IMG/VR virus record: IMGVR_UViG_3300022690_002240
Coordinates: 1-31,528 of that record
Strand: one strand, 5' to 3'
Source of the DNA: a virus
DNA length: 31,528 bases
In this document: positions 2,984 to 28,060 of the stretch, in pieces
How the letters are laid out: each line of letters starts with the position of its first letter
How positions within the stretch are numbered: the stretch's first letter is position 1
Notes under the pieces: generated by a model
The model's input: the letters and a program-made list of their open reading frames with translations, nothing else
Database searches by the model: none
Told to the model about the DNA's origin: nothing
Program-made: the position numbers and the translations under genes

Positions 2984-4933
2984 TTGTCAGAAGAAATCAA
3001 AGGTGAAATAGAAATTGTCTATAATGATGATGATGTAGTCAAGCAATCCAAACAGACATCTAATGCAATCTCATCAATGGGTAAATCCATTGATTCAACA
3101 ATGTCAGAAATTGAGAAAAGCACAGAAGATGCAGGGGACGAATTTAGCAAGACAGGTGACAAAAGTACTAGAGCATTCGGTAAGGTAGAACGAGCAAGTG
3201 ATGGTGCATCTCAATCAGTCAAAGATACAGCCCTTGAGGTTGTTGCTTTAGGTGAATCATTCAGCTCAGTTGCAGAATCAATCTTTGCTTTTGAAGAAAA
3301 ATTACTATCACTTGAGCGATCACAATTCGGTGTAACAGATACGGCACTTGGATTAAAACAAGAAATACAGGATTTTAAACTTGCAATTGATGAAGGTATA
3401 ATATCAATTATTGAACAAGAAAGAGCATTACAAAGCATCAGTAAAGGTTATCAAGATCTTGATTTGCAACAAAGAGAATTATCAGCCCAAGCCCAAGCCC
3501 TCAACGGTGAGTTCATATCATTTGGCTTAACCCTAATTCAAACAGCAGGAATCACAGGAATAATGCTAAAACAACTTGGACTATTCAACAAGACACTTGT
3601 CATTAATCGACTATCCATGATTGCATCATCAACAGTTTTCAAATCTATGATATTTAATGTAAATCAATTTAGGGTAGCAATGATTGGTGCCACATTTTCG
3701 TTAGGTGGCTTTAGAACTGGAATACGTGCAACAATGGCAGCGCTTGGCCCTATTGGAATTATAATGATAGCTGTTGGTGCAGCATTTGCAATTTGGGAAA
3801 CAAACGCATTTGGTGTCCAAGAAAAACTTACTGAACTCTTTGAAACAATTAAACAATTTTTACCATTCTTACAAGTTTTAGAAGATGTTGTCAAATCCAT
3901 ATTTCCACCAGAAGTTGCAAATGATATTGACAACGTTGGCATATCACTAGACGAAATTGATGCTAAAGTAAGTGGCTTAAGTTCAGGATTCAATAATCTA
4001 AGTGGCAACATTGTTGATTTTTCAGGCAATCTTGATAATGCAGAATCTGTCAACATGGCATTTGCAACTTCAATGTCAAAATCAAACAAAGAACTTACTA
4101 ATCAAAATAGAATATTGACAACGAACACTCAAAAATTAAATGAAAACACAATTGCAGCAGAACAGAATTTAAAAAAAAACGAGCTTAGTGCAAGACAATT
4201 CATTTCAGCTGGTGGCACGCTAAACACACTTGTAACTGCAGGTGATACACCAACAAGGCGAGGTAATGTATCACAAGAATTTTTTGATGCATTATCACCA
4301 GAACTGCGAAGTGGGTTCAGACCGGTAGGACGAGTCAGTATACCATCATCTGTCAGAGAAAGACTTTCAAGACAAAATGAATATAGTAAATCATTAGCTA
4401 GTGTTGCAGCTATTGCGATAGCTGGCAAAGGTGTAATTGGCAGAACTCAAGCAAACAAGCTAAAGCGAAATCCTGATTTTATTCGAAGTATAGATATTAT
4501 ACTTGTTGCAGCTGGTAGAGGTTTAATCAATAGAGCACAGCCTGCAGCCGAAATTAATGCTGCTGGTTTATCCGAAGGCCCAAGTGCAGCTATGAGAGTA
4601 ATTACAAGATGGATTGGTATAGCAACAAATTTAGTTGATGAAGACGACATTCGTAAAGATGCATTACGAGCTCAATCATTTGATATAGTTTTACGCAGCA
4701 TTGGAATTGCTGCAGGTGATGTTGGTGAAGCTGGCAGAACCAGAGAAAATCTTGCCATACTTGTTGCACAAAACACACAACTTACACAAGAAGAAGCATT
4801 TACAAGATTGGGGCCAACTGGAAGCCGAGGCACATCTATACTTCAATTTAAAAAAATTATTGATGCAAGAACACAACTAGCTAATGAATTAGCATTTCAA
4901 AAACGTACAGGGATGATCCAATTTCTACCATGA
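2984..4933 (+). CDS. Tail tape measure protein
   Basis: This 649-residue protein would set tail length and occupy the tube lumen. It has a long helical, Ser/Glu/Asp-rich N-terminal region (about 1-175, coiled-coil-like), a central hydrophobic core with a strong membrane-like segment at about 252-272 (LGPIGIIMIAVGAAFAIWE) and a weaker one at about 180-200, then an Ala-rich helical C-terminal half. This arrangement and the position directly after the tail chaperones are typical of tape measures. At 649 residues it predicts a tail of roughly 100 nm by the usual proportion of about 0.15 nm per residue. The start is TTG with a TATA-like box about 25 bases upstream; no Shine-Dalgarno site is visible. 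Confidence 0.85.
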   Translation: MSEEIKGEIEIVYNDDDVVKQSKQTSNAISSMGKSIDSTMSEIEKSTEDAGDEFSKTGDKSTRAFGKVERASDGASQSVKDTALEVVALGESFSSVAESIFAFEEKLLSLERSQFGVTDTALGLKQEIQDFKLAIDEGIISIIEQERALQSISKGYQDLDLQQRELSAQAQALNGEFISFGLTLIQTAGITGIMLKQLGLFNKTLVINRLSMIASSTVFKSMIFNVNQFRVAMIGATFSLGGFRTGIRATMAALGPIGIIMIAVGAAFAIWETNAFGVQEKLTELFETIKQFLPFLQVLEDVVKSIFPPEVANDIDNVGISLDEIDAKVSGLSSGFNNLSGNIVDFSGNLDNAESVNMAFATSMSKSNKELTNQNRILTTNTQKLNENTIAAEQNLKKNELSARQFISAGGTLNTLVTAGDTPTRRGNVSQEFFDALSPELRSGFRPVGRVSIPSSVRERLSRQNEYSKSLASVAAIAIAGKGVIGRTQANKLKRNPDFIRSIDIILVAAGRGLINRAQPAAEINAAGLSEGPSAAMRVITRWIGIATNLVDEDDIRKDALRAQSFDIVLRSIGIAAGDVGEAGRTRENLAILVAQNTQLTQEEAFTRLGPTGSRGTSILQFKKIIDARTQLANELAFQKRTGMIQFLP

Positions 4934-7576: not shown

Positions 7577-8200
7577 ATGTTTGAATCAGTTAATAGCAGA
7601 ATAGATGAATCAAACAAACAACTTTCATCTGGCATTTGGAATCTAGCTTTATGGAATAAATCAGATTATCCCGAATTAACAAATGATTCTAATTTATATA
7701 AAAAAATTAAAAAAATCTTTAATGAAATTACCAGCACACAAAAAAACACAGTTATTCCACCAGAACAAGTAACACTTTGCATAAACAACAAATCAATTAC
7801 AGCTCAATTCAACAAATCTAATATCTTAACTAACATTGGCATGAACGAAATGGCCAAACGCTCAGTTGGTGAAACATTATCTGTAAATCTGGCTCATGCA
7901 ATAGGCACTGACGGCACAACCCCAACCCTATCAGACACAGCACTTGGCGCTGAGGTTGCAAGAGTAACCATAGGAACAAAGTCTGTTGTTAATCAAACAG
8001 AAATTTATGCCTCAGCAATAGAAGGTGATATTTTATCATCACCACCACAAACAATTGAAGAAGCTGGAATCTTCACATCATTAACACCTGACGATCCTAT
8101 AATGACGGTACGAGTCACTTTTTCACCATTTCTTTTAGATGTTGGCAAAATTTTCACCTTACTAACAAACATATCTCACAAAAACGGAACGCAGGTTTAA
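7577..8200 (+). CDS. Probable fibre- or baseplate-associated tail protein
   Basis: This 207-residue protein lies between the LamG protein and the glycine-rich fibre. The second half (about 95-205) has a pattern seen in small tail-tip proteins of many phages: a GTDGTTP..SDTALGAEV segment, an EIYASAIEGD strand, EEAGIF and a final VRVTFSPF strand. It is probably a beta-rich structural adaptor for the fibre. The N-terminus is helical. The ATG at 7577 has weak upstream purines (AGGAAAT at 7563-7569). Confidence is high that it is a gene, modest for the role. Confidence 0.55.
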   Translation: MFESVNSRIDESNKQLSSGIWNLALWNKSDYPELTNDSNLYKKIKKIFNEITSTQKNTVIPPEQVTLCINNKSITAQFNKSNILTNIGMNEMAKRSVGETLSVNLAHAIGTDGTTPTLSDTALGAEVARVTIGTKSVVNQTEIYASAIEGDILSSPPQTIEEAGIFTSLTPDDPIMTVRVTFSPFLLDVGKIFTLLTNISHKNGTQV

Positions 8201-9505: not shown

Positions 9506-10171
9506 TTGAAAATTCAATATTTTAGTTCACCAATCCCACACATTATAATTCAAAATTGTTTCAATAAAAAAATCAATAAAAAAATTATCAAAGAATCAAT
9601 AAAACTAAAGACCAAATTTGTTGATGCAAGTATTGGACATAACACAATTGATAAAACCATGCGAAGCAACAAGGTTTGTTATTACCATGATATTTATCCA
9701 AATCAACCACCAACAATAAGACAATCATCACCTCTACTTTCATCACTAAATTCATTATTTGCCAATGGTGATTTTAGACACTTACTATCATCATCACCAT
9801 CACCCCTATCTGAATTTGTTATGACTAATCGTGATGAGATTCAAGTTTCAAGGTATGGTGATAATTCACAAAAATATGATTGGCATATTGACAGATTTGA
9901 AAACATACAAAGACACATCACAATGATTTACTATTTCAATAAAGAGCCTAAAAAATACAAAGGCGGTGAATTACTCCTATCATCAAATCCATTATACAAA
10001 CATAACCTAGTTGGCACAAATCCAAAAATAAAAGAAATCACACCAGAAAATAATATGCTTGTTGTATTCCCATCAAACGTTGCTCACTGTGTAAAATCAA
10101 CAACATCACCCAAAGCATTTGAAGATGGCAGATTTTCAGCTAATATATGGCTCGGATTTAACAGACAATGA
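9506..10171 (+). CDS. Fe(II)/2-oxoglutarate-dependent oxygenase (prolyl-hydroxylase-like, PKHD type)
   Basis: This 221-residue protein matches the usual length of PKHD-type hydroxylases. The iron-binding triad is visible: H127 and D129 in YDWHIDR, and H194 in VFPSNVAHCVKSTT; R209 in DGRFSANIWLGF is the expected 2-oxoglutarate-binding arginine. The GGEL turn at 153-156 and RYGD at 116-119 are also typical. The enzyme would couple oxidation of 2-oxoglutarate to hydroxylation of a protein side chain or small molecule. It lies directly after the glycine-rich fibre and overlaps the next oxygenase gene by four bases (ATGA), so the two are coupled. The substrate is unknown. Confidence 0.85.
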   Translation: MKIQYFSSPIPHIIIQNCFNKKINKKIIKESIKLKTKFVDASIGHNTIDKTMRSNKVCYYHDIYPNQPPTIRQSSPLLSSLNSLFANGDFRHLLSSSPSPLSEFVMTNRDEIQVSRYGDNSQKYDWHIDRFENIQRHITMIYYFNKEPKKYKGGELLLSSNPLYKHNLVGTNPKIKEITPENNMLVVFPSNVAHCVKSTTSPKAFEDGRFSANIWLGFNRQ

Positions 10172-12075: not shown

Positions 12076-12636
12076 ATGCATGGAATAACCCAAAGCAATC
12101 CTTCACAAAATTGGTGGCGCACTCCTAAAGGTGACAAACTACTTGGTCGTGGCCCACATACACTTAATAATTTAATTGATACATTTGATTTAATCCTTGA
12201 TCCCTGCTGCAGTGGCATCAATGACTGTCTAATCCCAATAAAAAAAGGTGGTAAATTCTTCACCAAAGAAGATAATGGATTAATTAAAAATTGGAAACAC
12301 AACACGATTTTCAATCCACCATTCTCAAAGACAGTCATTGATCCAAAAACTAACAAACCAAAAACAAGAATAAATCAAGAAGGCATAGTTGAAACAGTTT
12401 ACAAATCAGCAATTGGTGATTGGATAATCAAAGCTGTTTCACAAGTTCAAGCACACGGCATCACAGTTATTGGCATTCTTCCAGTTTACACTTCGCAAAC
12501 TTGGTTTCATCAATATATTCACAATATTGTACCAGTAAATTTTATTCATGGTCGTGTTAAATTCACATCACCAGAAGGAAAAACAGGTTCACCAAACTTT
12601 GACACAATGCTTGCTTTTTGGATGCCAAAGAAATGA
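12076..12636 (+). CDS. Phage-type DNA N6-adenine methyltransferase (Dam-like)
   Basis: This 186-residue protein matches the compact viral N6-adenine methyltransferase family. Visible signatures are WWRTPKGD at 13-20, the S-adenosylmethionine-side motif LDPCCSG at 41-47, the catalytic NPPF at 80-83, GILPVYTSQTWF in the later strand and HGRVKFTSPEGK with SPNFDTMLAFW near the end. It would transfer a methyl group to adenine in a short DNA target, probably to protect viral DNA from host restriction or to mark replication. No restriction enzyme with obvious pairing is next to it, although an HNH-like gene lies 1.2 kb downstream. Confidence 0.88.
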   Translation: MHGITQSNPSQNWWRTPKGDKLLGRGPHTLNNLIDTFDLILDPCCSGINDCLIPIKKGGKFFTKEDNGLIKNWKHNTIFNPPFSKTVIDPKTNKPKTRINQEGIVETVYKSAIGDWIIKAVSQVQAHGITVIGILPVYTSQTWFHQYIHNIVPVNFIHGRVKFTSPEGKTGSPNFDTMLAFWMPKK

Positions 12637-15980: not shown

Positions 15981-16829
15981 ATGACACAATTACAAGCATT
16001 CAAAAATTCAAAACAAAACAAATCTAATTTAATCACACAACTTGAATCTCATTACAAAGCCGATGAGATCATAAAAGGCACATATTGGGAAGATGGCAAA
16101 GGTTGTGCCGTTGGATGCACTGTTCATTCTAGTGATCATAAATGTTACGAAATAGAATTAGGAATACCACAATGGATGGCACATTTAGAAGATTATCTAT
16201 TTGAGAATCTACCAAATGAGAAAGCCAAAGAATTTCCATTAAAATTCATCCAATCTATTCCAGTAGGATTTGAAAACTGGACAAAAATATATCATAAACT
16301 TTGTGTGTATTTACTTACAGACATTATCAAAACTGAAAAAGATGAAAAGGTAATCAAAGCAGTTGAAGACATTATCACACTTCACATGAAAGCTGCAAAA
16401 GGTGAGATAGAATCAAACTTGTCAGCAGCAGAGTCAGCAGCAAGGTCAGCAGCAAGGTCAGCAGCAAGGTCAGCAGCATGGTCAGCAGCATGGTCAGCAG
16501 CAGAGTCAGCAGCAGAGTCAGCAGCAAGGTCAGCAGCAGAGTCAGCAGCATGGTCAGCAGCAGAGTCAGCAGCAGAGTCAGCAGCAGAGTCAGCAGCAGA
16601 GTCAGCAGCATGGTCAGCAGCAAGGTCAGCAGCAAGGTCAGCAGCAAGGTCAGCAGCAAGGTCAGCAGCAAGGTCAGCAGCAAGGTCAGCAGCAAGGTCA
16701 GCAGCAAGGTCAGCAGCATGGTCAGCAGCAGAGTCAGCAGCAGAGTCAGCAGCATGGTCAGCAGCATGGTCAGCAGCAGTTTTAAAGATTTCAGATAAAC
16801 TCTTAGAATTATTGGAGTCTGAAAAATGA
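15981..16829 (+). CDS. Protein with N-terminal domain and about 30 SAA[R/E/W] repeats
   Basis: This 282-residue protein has a folded N-terminal domain (1-145) with GTYWEDGKGCAVGCTVHSS near 33-51, LGIPQWMAHLED near 69-80 and SIPVGF near 102; this domain is familiar in hypothetical phage proteins. Residues 148-267 are a tandem array of the tetrapeptide SAAx, where x is R, E or W (29 units plus a final SAAV). The array should be one long helix with the variable residue every four positions. The gene begins the unit driven by promoter copy C and overlaps the next start by four bases. Function unknown. Confidence 0.8.
   Translation: MTQLQAFKNSKQNKSNLITQLESHYKADEIIKGTYWEDGKGCAVGCTVHSSDHKCYEIELGIPQWMAHLEDYLFENLPNEKAKEFPLKFIQSIPVGFENWTKIYHKLCVYLLTDIIKTEKDEKVIKAVEDIITLHMKAAKGEIESNLSAAESAARSAARSAARSAAWSAAWSAAESAAESAARSAAESAAWSAAESAAESAAESAAESAAWSAARSAARSAARSAARSAARSAARSAARSAARSAAWSAAESAAESAAWSAAWSAAVLKISDKLLELLESEK
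16422..16781 (+). repeat. 12-base tandem repeat array (30 units) encoding SAAx
   Basis: Units have the form TCAGCAGCA plus AGG, GAG or TGG, with no change in the first nine bases. The unit order by last residue is E R R R W W E E R E W E E E E W R(x8) W E E W W V. The DNA is almost error-free between units, which indicates recent expansion or continuing homogenisation. Confidence 0.95.
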
Positions 16830-22618: not shown

Positions 22619-23983
22619 TTGAACTACGCCAACAGATTCACCCAAAGTTTCAATAATTTTCTAAGTTACATTGGCAATGCAACACATGGTATCAACCCAA
22701 CTGTCGCACTATCAGAAAGCACAACAACCTTTGGTGAAACGCCAGACATTCCATTATCACGAATTGTTCAAAGATACCTAGTTAATTCAAAATTTGATTA
22801 TGTCTTACATCTATACACATCATATACAGTTGGCCGAGGTTTCACAAATGTATCAGAAACAGAAACCCCAAGAGCCTTAGCTTGCTTGGAAATGATTAAT
22901 GAATTTACAAAAGCTAACAAGCTTCAACAATTAAATCAAGTAGCAATTTACGAAGCCTGGGCGAGTGGCAATACTTTCTTTAACATTCCTGGTACTGGTG
23001 ATGATATTGATGGATTATACAATATACCATTAAGCAGCATTACAGCAATTGACAGAGAAACCGATGGCACAGTTATCTCATATCAACAACAACTAGGTGG
23101 AACATTTGCCGCAATTCCAGCTGATCAAGTTGCACATTTTAAAATTACACCAAAAGACGGTTCAGCATTTGGTGAAATGTTAGGGCAACCAATGGAGCGC
23201 CAAGGATTAGGATATAAAACATCAAGCGGTAATACAGTAAGAAAAGCAAGTGAGTTTTCAATCGATGAAATGACAGATGATGTCTCAAGCAAAATGTTCT
23301 ATTCAGGCCAACCCAAATATGTTGTAACACCAGCAGACAAAGATGCATCATTAACCAAACCTGATGTTGAATTAATCACAAGTAAACTAACTAAAACAGA
23401 TCCACTAAAACATTTCATCACAAACAAAAGAATCACAATAGCAACAACTGAACTCAGCACCCAATCAAAACATGATGCATACATTTCAAGAGCTAGAGAA
23501 AACTTTATCATTGGCACAAAGTCTGCAGTTATCCCATTAATCACAGCTCTAGATTTCAGTTATGCATCATCACAAACAGCACTAGAAACTGCAATCCCAC
23601 TAATAATCCTCATACAAACTGAATATACTGATTTTATCAATAACCAAATTTACAGACCACTAATCATTCAAGCAGGCAAAAACCCAGACAAAATTAAAAT
23701 CTCAATCAAATTCAAAACCATTGACAGATTAACAATTGAATTAATCACACAATCTTGGAATATACTTCAAAATCCAAAGTTTGATGGACTATACAAACCA
23801 GAAGATATTGTGCAATCCCTTCGTGATGTTGGAATGCCACTCGATGAGATAGCACCAACACAAAGCGCAACCCTCAAAGCCATTCAACAACAGAACAGAA
23901 TCATTGCAGCAATCCAAGAAGTTATAGATAAACCAAAGAAAGTTGCAGAAATAGCCAAAAGCGCCCAAGAAAAGCAAGACTAA
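22619..23983 (+). CDS. Portal protein
   Basis: This 454-residue protein would form the dodecameric DNA channel at one head vertex. Support is its position after TerL and before the protease, its length, and the portal-like segment YEAWASGNTFF at 111-121, with the following beta strands (SSITAIDRETDGTVISYQ) that resemble the wing region. The C-terminal quarter is helical and ends with a Lys/Gln-rich tail. The start is TTG 22619, with an AT-rich GATTTAAATAATAG immediately upstream. Confidence 0.85.
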   Translation: MNYANRFTQSFNNFLSYIGNATHGINPTVALSESTTTFGETPDIPLSRIVQRYLVNSKFDYVLHLYTSYTVGRGFTNVSETETPRALACLEMINEFTKANKLQQLNQVAIYEAWASGNTFFNIPGTGDDIDGLYNIPLSSITAIDRETDGTVISYQQQLGGTFAAIPADQVAHFKITPKDGSAFGEMLGQPMERQGLGYKTSSGNTVRKASEFSIDEMTDDVSSKMFYSGQPKYVVTPADKDASLTKPDVELITSKLTKTDPLKHFITNKRITIATTELSTQSKHDAYISRARENFIIGTKSAVIPLITALDFSYASSQTALETAIPLIILIQTEYTDFINNQIYRPLIIQAGKNPDKIKISIKFKTIDRLTIELITQSWNILQNPKFDGLYKPEDIVQSLRDVGMPLDEIAPTQSATLKAIQQQNRIIAAIQEVIDKPKKVAEIAKSAQEKQD

Positions 23984-24023: not shown

Positions 24024-25979
24024 ATGCAGATTGATCCTAATAATATCCCAACCCAAAAAGGATTTCATAAATTAGTTCTAACAATAAACAAGAGTTTTAA
24101 AATTAATGATATTTCTGCATTCAGAAAACACATCAGAAACAAAGTAAAATTACTCACCAAATCAATGAATGAAACTGAACTATTCGATTTTATGACAAAG
24201 GAAATGAACATATTCATTCAAGCTAAAAAAATCAAATCACTATTCAAATCAAACAAACACATTTTAAAATCAAATAATTTCAAATGGATTTCTGATTTAG
24301 GTCTCACATTAAATGAAGCTCAAGATATGATGCTCATCAAAGGTGTTGCAATGTCAGCTGGTACTAAAAAAGACAATGACATTGAAACAGATGAAAACAT
24401 AATCTTTGCATCAGGAGCAATGGCAGCAGCTGCCCTACAAAACAAATCAAATATTGACATTGATCACTTTGAAGAATCTTTACCTGTTGATGAATACAGT
24501 GAATATGATGTAAAGGCAATCAATGCAACTTATCCACCAGCTAGAACTTTGGCCGTCGGTATTGCTAAAAATGAAATGGGCGAATCTGGCACACCAACAA
24601 TACAAACTGAATTTATTGGTGTTTGCTCAAATACCAAAGTCTATGAAATGATTCAAAACGGTGAATTTGTTGGATGCTCAACTGTTGAGCTCGTAGCTAA
24701 AAGAAACTGTGAATGCAACAATGAGAATCATGATTGCGGTTGCACATTACAAGGATCACAATTCACCGATAACACTCTAATCTTAAAGGGAGTGCCAAAC
24801 TCCGAAGGCACTTGGGTTTCAGCAGTTGACAAAAATGACATTGGCTCAATCATTAGTGAATCAACAACAAAGAACTCAAAGCCAACCAAAGAAAAATTGG
24901 CAATTATAAATTCAATGAAACTCACATATCATACAACTAAAAATTCAACTGATCAAATCATGCTGCCTGATTTATCCAAATACAAAAATCAAGATGGCAA
25001 ATGGAAGGATGGCAAACAAAGCATTGCTAATTTCTTACAAGTCGAAAGGAAAATATCAAAAGAAATGGCTACATCAATCGCCAACACATTAGAGAAAAAC
25101 CCTGGACTCCTTAGTGATGCACAACTTGTATTCTTTTCAAATGATGATCTAACTGAATGGCATTCACATCTTAATGAAAAATTAAACAAACTAGCTAAAC
25201 AAAAGAACTCTACTAAAACACCAACTAAAAAACTAAACATTATCCAATTTGGTAAAGGTGAAGTTAATTACGGCCCAAGAGAGCCAGGTGGCCAATGTGG
25301 TGAATGTAGATGGGGAACATTCCCAGCTGATATAGCTGAGAACCCTGGCCAAGACGGAATTTGTGCAATTGTTGCAGGCGAAATTCAATGGATGGATGGA
25401 TGCGATAAATTTGAAATGATACCTGGGTTGTCAACGCCTGATCCTGAAACAACATCTGATGATTCAACTGATGATGAAAATATTCATGTCATTGAACCAG
25501 ATGAGGACGGCAACTGTCCACAAGGCTATAATCTTGAAACCATAAATGATGTGCCAGTATGTGTATTAATTGAAGATGATACAGAAGAAGTTATTGTCGT
25601 TGATGATAACGCAGCACATACAACTGACACTGATGCTGATGGCAACTGTCCTGACGGCTTCACTAAAACAGAAATTGATGGTGTGATGATGTGTGTTGCA
25701 AATGATGCAGACAATGAAGATCTCACAGATGAACAATTACAAAACATCAAGAACAAGAAAAAGAATCTTTCAAATGTAATGCAAGAAAAGAATCCATTAT
25801 CAAAATCTAATGATAAGATTAAGGAAATCAACAGTAAAATTCATGAGCTAAGAGTTGAATTAAACAAACATAGATATGCAATTGGATATTCCAAAGCCTC
25901 AATGGATATTATGGCCAAACGTGAGAACATAAAGAAGCAAATCAAAGTCTTAGAAGAAAAAAAAAGCAAACTCACTTAA
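24024..25979 (+). CDS. Prohead protease-scaffold protein with Cys-rich and Asp/Gly-loop inserts
   Basis: This 651-residue protein lies where HK97-type proteases sit. Residues about 105-275 look like the protease: LIKGVAMSAGTKKD, H148 in IDIDHFEE and S219 in FVGCSTVEL are the likely catalytic His and Ser. A middle helical part (about 315-400) follows, then a four-Cys domain (C425, C428, C447, C460), two related repeats with DxDGNCPxG loops (about 490-515 and 530-555), and a C-terminal coiled coil that could be the scaffold. A TATA-like TTTTATTAA lies about 28 bases before the ATG. A nine-A run near the 3' end may let some ribosomes enter the -1 frame and add a MuF-like domain. Confidence 0.75.
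   Translation: MQIDPNNIPTQKGFHKLVLTINKSFKINDISAFRKHIRNKVKLLTKSMNETELFDFMTKEMNIFIQAKKIKSLFKSNKHILKSNNFKWISDLGLTLNEAQDMMLIKGVAMSAGTKKDNDIETDENIIFASGAMAAAALQNKSNIDIDHFEESLPVDEYSEYDVKAINATYPPARTLAVGIAKNEMGESGTPTIQTEFIGVCSNTKVYEMIQNGEFVGCSTVELVAKRNCECNNENHDCGCTLQGSQFTDNTLILKGVPNSEGTWVSAVDKNDIGSIISESTTKNSKPTKEKLAIINSMKLTYHTTKNSTDQIMLPDLSKYKNQDGKWKDGKQSIANFLQVERKISKEMATSIANTLEKNPGLLSDAQLVFFSNDDLTEWHSHLNEKLNKLAKQKNSTKTPTKKLNIIQFGKGEVNYGPREPGGQCGECRWGTFPADIAENPGQDGICAIVAGEIQWMDGCDKFEMIPGLSTPDPETTSDDSTDDENIHVIEPDEDGNCPQGYNLETINDVPVCVLIEDDTEEVIVVDDNAAHTTDTDADGNCPDGFTKTEIDGVMMCVANDADNEDLTDEQLQNIKNKKKNLSNVMQEKNPLSKSNDKIKEINSKIHELRVELNKHRYAIGYSKASMDIMAKRENIKKQIKVLEEKKSKLT
25957..25965 (+). promoter_or_regulatory. 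Poly-A slippery site, candidate -1 frameshift
   Basis: Nine A residues contain A AAA AAA (25958-25964) in the zero frame of the protease gene, 12 bases before its TAA stop (25977-25979). A -1 slip joins the protease frame to the open frame that runs to 26216-26218. An assembly or sequencing error in the homopolymer would give the same picture. Confidence 0.55.
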
Positions 25980-26218
25980 CCTTAATCAATAATTATAAAC
26001 AATATTATCAATCAATTTCAAATCAAGCTGTTGGCATCCTTCCAACTACTGCTGAACCTGTCACAATATTACAAATATGGGAGATTCATGGAGCCGTAGA
26101 CTTCATTTGTACACAATATCAAGGCACAACATGGGAGATAAATGAAGGCCCACAGCCAATTATAGACACTCACCCCAATTGTAACTGCACAAGAGATCCT
26201 TTTTCCTTTACAGTTTAA
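25964..26218 (+). CDS. MuF-like minor capsid domain in the -1 frame (frameshift extension of the protease-scaffold)
   Basis: This frame encodes about 84 residues, including TILQIWEIHGAVDFICTQYQ, then GTTWEINEGPQPIIDTHPNC and NCTRDPF. The order Trp, Asp, Cys, Gly, Trp, then a final HPNCxC is the C-terminal signature of Mu gpF-like minor head proteins. The frame contains no ATG, GTG or TTG, so independent initiation is unlikely, and it opens upstream only inside the protease gene. Expected product is join(24024..25964,25964..26218). Alternatives are a homopolymer error joining one normal gene, or a non-standard start such as ATT. Confidence 0.62.
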   Translation, partial: KQTHLTLINNYKQYYQSISNQAVGILPTTAEPVTILQIWEIHGAVDFICTQYQGTTWEINEGPQPIIDTHPNCNCTRDPFSFTV

Positions 26219-26277
26219 TCAAATTACACCTAAAATGTATTAAAAATCTTGAAATAATACCAAGTTAACCATCCTTT

Positions 26278-26610
26278 ATGGCTAGAAACAAAAAAAATAA
26301 GAAAAACAAAGCTATAACATCGACAAACCAAGAACAAAACGCCAAAAATGATGCTGAATCAGGTCATAATACACCAATTATATTGGGAACCGAAGCAATT
26401 ACACCAACATTAACAGCTTCAACAGCTGATGAAACACCAATCATACCTGAAACAAGCAAACCTGAAAACATTCCAACCAAAAAGACCTCAAAAGAAGAAA
26501 AAGAATGGCGTAAATGCACACATCAATTCTGCAGCTATAAAACTTGGGTAAAAGATGTCAAAAATTGTCCAATGCATCCTGATATTATACTTGTAAAAAT
26601 TAAAAAATAA
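26278..26610 (+). CDS. Low-complexity protein with C-terminal zinc finger
   Basis: This 110-residue protein has a Lys/Asn-rich start, a Thr/Pro/Glu-rich disordered middle (15-78) and a C-terminal metal site CTHQFCSYKTW followed by NCPMHPDI (C-x4-C, C-x2-H). It sits between the MuF-like domain and the decoration gene, so a capsid-associated role is possible. The disordered linker with a terminal finger would suit tethering to nucleic acid or another protein. Confidence 0.62.
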   Translation: MARNKKNKKNKAITSTNQEQNAKNDAESGHNTPIILGTEAITPTLTASTADETPIIPETSKPENIPTKKTSKEEKEWRKCTHQFCSYKTWVKDVKNCPMHPDIILVKIKK

Positions 26611-27079: not shown

Positions 27080-28060
27080 ATGGAACAACTACTAGAAAAC
27101 AAAATTCGCAATATGATTAATAGTAAATACAAATACACTTACAATACAATCAATGCAATTCTAGGTGATAAAGGAAGTGATGGAAATGATGTCAATCTTG
27201 AAACACTCAAAGAATCTGCATTATACAAATCTTATTCTAAATCTCTAAACACTGTCACATCAGACACATTGCCTGATTTAGTAGAATTACTATCTACTGC
27301 AATTAACGCCCCAACCCCTGCAACTGTTGGCCGTTCACTTGTAAACATTCACACAACTACAGCTGAAACAATAAAAATTAGATTACCAAAATTAGCCGTA
27401 GCATCTAAAACAAACAACGGACTAAAAGGCCGTTCAGTTGGTGAAAGAAATGACTTTGTATCATTAACACCAAACCAAGAAATTGAAGACTCTGATCAAT
27501 GGAATGATAACGATTTAGAAGACCGACCTTGGAATCTTCAACAATCAGACATTGCAGCTATCGGTGTAGGTCACGACATTAAAGAAACATCTAACATTTT
27601 AGATTTCTATAATAATTTATCATTGGGCAGTTTAGCAACTGATGCATTAATCCCAGCTGTTACTCAAAATGAATTTGGTTGGTCTGACATTGTAAACATG
27701 TGGGTTGCATTGGGCAACTTTGCTGGAAATGCTCTAATGATGAGTAAAACCACATACGGTGCACTAATCAAAGACCAAGACTTTAAGGATCAAACCATAC
27801 TTGGTGAATTTGTTGATCCTTCAACTGGTCAATTTGGCAGAACTATCTTAGGCTTTGATATATTTGTCTCAACATTACAAGCAGATGATATTGTTTTAGC
27901 AATTGATACATCATCAGCTGGTCAATATGCATTAAGACGAAACAAAGTTCTAAAAACATTCCAATCATCAATTAACGACACACAAATCCAAATCTCATCA
28001 AGATTCGATTTGAAACTTGGCCGTGATGGCAGTGTTGCAAGAATGGATATTAGCGCATAA
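27080..28060 (+). CDS. Major capsid protein (HK97 fold)
   Basis: This 326-residue protein follows the decoration gene by two bases. The N-terminal 55 residues are helical and may act as scaffold or delta domain. After them come strands around TTTAETIKIRLPKL and a region with NQEIEDSDQWND, then spine-like helices (NILDFYNNLSLGSLATDALI) and FGWSDIVNMWVALGNFAGNA, ending in strands with a tail of ARMDIS. Position after portal, protease and decoration genes makes the assignment strong even without a diagnostic motif. A T-rich stretch (28078-28092) follows and may end the transcript. Confidence 0.85.
   Translation: MEQLLENKIRNMINSKYKYTYNTINAILGDKGSDGNDVNLETLKESALYKSYSKSLNTVTSDTLPDLVELLSTAINAPTPATVGRSLVNIHTTTAETIKIRLPKLAVASKTNNGLKGRSVGERNDFVSLTPNQEIEDSDQWNDNDLEDRPWNLQQSDIAAIGVGHDIKETSNILDFYNNLSLGSLATDALIPAVTQNEFGWSDIVNMWVALGNFAGNALMMSKTTYGALIKDQDFKDQTILGEFVDPSTGQFGRTILGFDIFVSTLQADDIVLAIDTSSAGQYALRRNKVLKTFQSSINDTQIQISSRFDLKLGRDGSVARMDISA

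Follow-up and report, generated by a model that had tools for sequence, protein, structure and literature searches.

A MuF-like domain without a usual start codon behind a conserved nine-A run, probably expressed by slippage at the end of a viral head-assembly gene

The stretch of DNA analyzed here, hereafter the window, comprises the 31,528 nucleotides (positions 1 to 31,528) of the IMG/VR virus record IMGVR_UViG_3300022690_002240. Its head gene region contains, after the TerL gene and on the plus strand, a putative portal gene (454 aa; 22619-23983), an ORF of 651 aa (24024-25979) that would encode a putative head maturation protease with a C-terminal, scaffold-like helical region and that is referred to below as the zero-frame gene, a MuF-like ORF in the -1 frame relative to it, and a putative major capsid protein (MCP) gene (27080-28060). 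The same order, i.e. TerL, putative portal, zero-frame/MuF gene, a small gene, a decoration-like gene and putative MCP, was found in all three lineages of uncultivated tailed viruses that share this layout, two of which (contigs L004 and L010, see below) carry one to three additional genes ahead of the zero-frame/MuF gene. The portal and MCP labels are based on position and weak matches: the putative portal follows TerL and has orthologues that are 45-89% identical, and it matched nothing in Pfam, PHROG or the phage records, and the putative MCP, with orthologues that are 48-91% identical, gave a weak match to a PHROG major head protein (E 0.032). The TerL protein matches those of Bacillus and other phages at low identity. 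When genome contigs were searched with the protease and MCP profiles, no relatives were found and no host genome or provirus was matched. Most genes of the window show no obvious Shine-Dalgarno site by eye, which fits archaea and also some bacteria, and an archaeal host is suspected. Elsewhere in the window there are a 2OG-Fe(II) oxygenase gene (9506-10171), a Dam-type adenine methyltransferase gene (12076-12636) and a gene (15981-16829) whose protein contains short Ala/Ser repeats in long succession (ESAAESAARSAAWSAA...).

The zero-frame gene ends with the codons GAA AAA AAA AGC AAA CTC ACT TAA, which include a run of nine A residues (A9; 25957-25965, plus strand) and the stop codon TAA at 25977-25979. 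This stop begins 11 bases beyond the end of the run, and the 12 bases that the first-pass annotation had counted from an A AAA AAA heptamer to the stop fit the A_AAA_AAA sequence located in the zero-frame phase at 25958-25964. In the -1 frame, positions 25925-26218 are open for 97 codons, which end in DTHPNCNCTRDPFSFTV, and none of these codons is ATG, GTG, TTG or CTG. The sequence thus confirmed that the MuF-like frame running to 26218 lies in the -1 frame after the nine-A run and lacks ATG, GTG and TTG, as that annotation had stated. The part that would be read after a slip begins with an AAG codon and extends over 25964-26218, stop codon included. The genome of the window is AT-rich and contains further runs of eight to ten A residues, including a second nine-A run at 4171-4179 that is located within the tape-measure ORF, whose frame stays open. 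Of the dinucleotide shuffles, 1.4% placed an A9 run in the final 55 nt of the gene and 0.46% left the frame following the run open for 82 codons, and the 82 open codons and the missing start codons did not occur together in any of 20,000 shuffles.

Conservation provided a stronger test than these shuffles. Three related contigs with the same layout as the window were identified in the viral collection, namely 3300022690_001502 (L002), 3300023223_000712 (L004) and 3300023443_001024 (L010). Their zero-frame proteins are 95, 44 and 45% identical, respectively, to that of the window, and the -1 extension of the window shows 54% amino acid identity to that of L004 and 50% to that of L010. The nine A residues and the frame offset of L002 are the same as in the window, and the zero-frame genes of L004 and L010 end with CAA AAA AAA AGA ACT CTA TAG and CAA AAA AAA AGA AAA CTA TAA, respectively, so that the codon phase across the run is NAA.AAA.AAA.AGN in all four records. 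Both sequence signals expected for slippage, the X_XXY_YYZ heptamer in zero-frame phase for -1 ribosomal frameshifting (here A_AAA_AAA) and a homopolymer of about nine A or T residues for transcriptional slippage (here exactly nine A residues), are therefore present in the four records. Each relative has its MuF-like ORF in the -1 frame without a plausible start, and none of them carries MuF as an independent gene with its own start; the only codon of the usual set, a single GTG in the -1 ORF of L004, is located late, inside the MuF motif, and an own start codon of that kind was accordingly rejected. Four records that represent three lineages, the only three known to have this layout, share the A9 run and its phase as well as the frame offset and the lack of a start. 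When the alignments of MuF, MCP, TerL and portal were used to scan for further relatives, the same contigs were recovered, plus one distant TerL match (L019; 22% identity) from a contig of 104 kb whose gene content differs, which was set aside. The pattern A9G-N(174-204)-CAYCCNAAYTGYAA was found in L002, L004 and L010 only among the searched viral contigs, a set that may leave out the window's own record, and as its gap range was chosen to span these three cases, the scan shows specificity rather than the absence of looser relatives. The window and L002 are identical over 104 bases around the A run and beyond it (25932-26035); this identity is not specific to the run because a second block, of 110 bases (26212-26321), which reaches from the last part of the MuF ORF across the intergenic region into the beginning of the following gene, is identical as well.

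The conserved offset and the lack of a start make recoding the simplest route to the MuF part. A separate initiation of MuF at a non-standard codon (ATA, ATC or ATT) near the zero-frame stop, either by termination-reinitiation or from its own transcript, would be an alternative, and there is an isoleucine codon in the -1 frame that is aligned across the lineages: it is ATA in L004 (position 6016) and L010 (position 7917), where it overlaps the zero-frame stop (ATAG and ATAA, respectively), and ATC at 25985 in the window. However, such starts are very weak, the codon of the window is not at the stop, and the conserved A9 run would be left without a reason, which makes this explanation highly doubtful.

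The pattern of substitutions indicates that the -1 frame is under purifying selection. Between the window and L002, pS was 0.17 and pN 0.04, with 11 of the 17 differences at third codon positions; between lineages, dS was 0.6-2.2 and dN 0.20-0.39, and considering all pairs pN/pS ranged from 0.23 to 0.46, dN/dS being about 0.2-0.3. The zero-frame gene is likewise constrained. Such selection argues for a protein-coding -1 frame, and a conserved overlapping -1 ORF under selection, as expected for programmed -1 frameshifting, is thus present. Moreover, dS between the lineage of the window and the other two is about 1.5-2.2, i.e. near saturation, and all nine A residues have been kept. In the zero-frame gene of the window, lysine is encoded by AAA in 76% of the cases and serine by an AGN codon in 17%; given the amino acids, the nine A residues are therefore unforced by codon usage, and codon bias alone would produce A9 in both lineage groups with a probability of around 0.03, as a rough estimate that takes the lineages as independent.

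Conservation across divergent lineages, together with the dN/dS values, is a strong argument against both sequencing error and decay. Homopolymers are error-prone and the relatives are metagenome contigs, but the four records, three of which come under three different IMG sample numbers, agree on nine A residues up to near-saturated synonymous divergence, and a sequencing or assembly error in the run is consequently very unlikely indeed. The A9 run might alternatively be a tolerated lesion, the full fusion being the sole functional product, restored by slippage, and the short form being waste. The AT-rich genome and a zero-frame stop located at most four codons beyond the run would suit such an origin, slippage is reported to restore the frame at such homopolymer breaks in some AT-rich genomes, and Wernegreen et al. 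(2010) reportedly described ancient homopolymer frameshifts maintained by selection. Nevertheless, the break persists in three lineages whose synonymous divergence is near saturation and no in-frame version was seen, and we regard a lesion as improbable.

The MuF-like nature of the -1 extension is suggested by its C-terminal motif, DFICTQYQGTTWEINEGPQPIIDTHPNCNC (26099-26188, plus strand). When the extension was compared by hhalign with MuF proteins, two of which exceed the cut-off of Pfam PF04233, it aligned over 30 columns with a probability of 98.4% and an E value of 8e-15, and the C-terminal pattern C...DG..W...P.P..(D)THPNC.C is kept in the four records. In addition, the -1 ORF of L004 gave weak tblastn matches in phage records (E 0.07-0.7), and those with a functional annotation were largely head-morphogenesis or minor-capsid genes. 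The location between the putative portal and putative MCP genes is the usual place of MuF. On the other hand, searching the window with the PF04233 profile gave no match up to E 10, a Pfam search with the -1 ORF of the window gave no match, and its predicted structure was of low confidence (pLDDT 56). The aligned part is about 30 columns long, compared with 112 profile positions for the full PF04233 domain. A short extension that is unrelated to MuF and contains HPNCNC by chance would account for the short alignment, the missing Pfam match and the poor model; the hhalign result, the tblastn matches and the genomic location speak against it, and it appears unlikely. The support for MuF is weaker than the first-pass annotation, which called the signature convincing, had suggested, as the match extends over about 30 columns.

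The identity of the zero-frame product was less easily assigned. Its orthologues in L002, L004 and L010 (44-95% identical) share two invariant motifs, IDHF, with the candidate catalytic His148 (codon 24465-24467, plus strand), and GEFVGCST, with the candidate catalytic Ser219 (codon 24678-24680, plus strand), which were likened by eye to NHKTWELPVG and MQHGTVEGMSVG of HK97 gp4. However, no known protease profile, including that of the HK97-type (S78) prohead protease, matched the product in any test, and a restricted hhalign comparison with HK97-type proteases aligned only the stretch of Ser219 with a non-significant probability (0.13%). The phage records yielded no match to the product. Searches among solved structures gave nothing meaningful. 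The capsid protease label given in the first-pass annotation was thus not confirmed by any profile and, since all such tests failed, we infer a protease from other evidence: gene order and the His/Ser motifs suggest that the product is probably a maturation protease, and its helical C-terminus looks scaffold-like. Its predicted structure is poor (mean pLDDT 42), with a C-terminal hairpin that locally reaches 54-84 (25794-25976, plus strand; predicted helices 591-615 and 624-650) and that extends into the slip site. Going by the models of the two parts, both of low confidence, the last 60 zero-frame residues would form a helical hairpin that continues in the first MuF helix. Within the putative protease, the region at 25480-25710 encodes Cys-containing repeats (DxDGNCPxGF...IDGVxMC) whose number and spacing differ between lineages.

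Taken together, these results suggest, with a probability of about 0.75, that the MuF-like part is produced by recoding, a slip at A9 giving rise to a minor, MuF-tipped fusion beside the standard product; this estimate applies to a slip-made fusion by either a ribosomal or a polymerase route, and not to the functional model discussed below. The predicted joined peptide of the fusion is LEEKKKQTHLTL. As for the first-pass proposal of a -1 slip yielding two proteins, the conserved run and offset, the lack of an independently started MuF gene in these relatives and the purifying selection on the -1 frame support it, and as far as these contigs allow a test it withstands the refuting conditions named there. 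The translational route that it assumed is only slightly favored over a transcriptional one.

Two routes to the same fusion have to be considered. No stable RNA structure beyond that of shuffled sequences was predicted in the 100 nt downstream of the A run in the three lineages (z -0.02, 0.71 and 0.89, in a comparison with pseudoknots outside its scope), and no Shine-Dalgarno-like stimulator was evident by eye near the run; such structures or sites are not obligatory for A-run sites. A stretch of L010 just upstream of the run (7830-7901) folds better than shuffles (z -3.45), and neither the window nor L004 shows this in the corresponding stretch. The virus appears to have a second -1 site, T_TTT_TTA (1905-1911), in its tail assembly chaperone pair (1417-1983 and 1839-2150, the second half being in the -1 frame). 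The same heptamer is present in the pairs of the two divergent relatives (L033, 6018-6664; L034, 15837-15206, reverse), both chaperone halves are homologous between them, and in the window a lambda-like G_GGA_AAG follows T_TTT_TTA after a few codons. This second site suggests that the ribosomes of the hosts probably make -1 shifts.

If RNA polymerase slipped instead, some transcripts would carry ten (or seven) A residues and the fusion would be read without a ribosomal shift, with the same protein outcome and a mixture in the RNA. Nine A residues is a classic length for slippage by the polymerase: many bacterial genomes show selection against slippage at this length (PMC1088944), and Thermus thermophilus dnaX uses it for transcriptional slippage (PMC1088944, PMC3711429). 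In E. coli the shift product of A-run cassettes increased from 10% with seven A residues to 40% with nine (PMC3711429), which supports a slip as such, by either route. A run of exactly nine in all lineages and the lack of a stimulatory structure downstream are in agreement with this route, as is the contrast with the T run of the tail chaperone gene, whose length is 8, 6 and 6 across lineages and is thus not kept. In turn, the other A8-A10 runs of the genome, including the one in the tape-measure ORF, look as if they were tolerated, longer A runs may raise ribosomal slippage too, and the T_TTT_TTA of the tail chaperone gene favors the ribosome. We therefore consider polymerase slippage a serious but less probable alternative, and ribosomal slippage, which is only slightly ahead of it, the most likely route, the two not being separable here.

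In the mechanism that we propose, most translation would stop at 25979 and yield the head-assembly protein of 651 aa, the probable maturation protease with its scaffold-like helical C-terminus, and a minority of events at A9, most likely ribosomes on A_AAA_AAA, would shift to the -1 frame and extend the product to about 731 aa, with the MuF C-terminal domain at its tip. In SPP1, gp7 enters the procapsid in few copies through portal binding (PMC6316719); the MuF tip would, by analogy, attach to the portal within the capsid, and the slip rate would set the number of protease/scaffold molecules anchored at the portal vertex.

Fusions of MuF are already known. In-frame MuF-protease and MuF-portal fusions have been described in phages as single genes (PMC7302621), and MuF-like genes are among the computational frameshift candidates flagged by a predictor (PMC10885494). 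A search covering part of the literature found no described MuF fusion that comes about through a shift out of a protease/scaffold-like gene. The first-pass remark that no case with this arrangement is known thus holds for shift-dependent fusions but not for the fusion type as such, to which the layout of the window adds the shift dependence. The cluster EG MuF-protease (PMC7302621) and phrog_595 (head maturation protease) likewise combine both functions in one polypeptide. However, the cluster EG gene is continuous and every molecule has both parts, and in phrog_595 the MuF stretch (about 166-297 of 513) probably precedes the protease part, whereas MuF is C-terminal and in the -1 frame in the window. 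SPP1 gp7 and Mu gpF (Phage_Mu_F, PF04233) show the same C-terminal Cys-His-Cys motif (C..GxxWE...P.P..DTHPNCNC) and the same place between the portal and capsid genes, but they are independent genes with their own start. In the portal/MuF-like fusions of Arthrobacter phage OMalley (gp3) and of the Microbacterium phage clusters EA and EB, MuF is also tethered to another head component, which is the portal and is in the same frame.

Slippage itself also has precedents. The coat proteins of T7/T3, Lactobacillus phage A2 and Listeria phages A118/A500/PSA acquire a C-terminal extension by frameshifting near the gene end, as proposed here, but there it is the major coat protein that is extended, and the added part is Ig-like or of another kind instead of MuF (PMC5009743). 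T. thermophilus dnaX also contains nine A residues late in the gene and gives two products, although it is a bacterial cellular gene and slippage shortens its product (PMC1088944, PMC3711429). Finally, in lambda-type gpG/gpGT, of which this virus seems to have a counterpart, a -1 shift produces a small share of fusion used in assembly, but of the tail rather than the head, and the heptamer of the three lineages at that site is T_TTT_TTA, not an A run.

How tailed viruses bring a minor head protein, in few copies, to the single portal vertex is a question of assembly that does not lend itself easily to testing. We tentatively suggest that a tailed-virus lineage doses the MuF portal-binding domain by recoding, the A9 run putting MuF on a fixed minority of molecules and thereby limiting recruitment at the portal vertex, a reading that is possible but considerably less certain than the slip-made fusion itself. 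A slip site that fixes the MuF-tipped share would make copy number testable by altering the run. Such domains escape gene callers that require a start codon. Should the host prove archaeal and the dosing reading true, this virus would provide an example of slippage-controlled capsid assembly in archaea.
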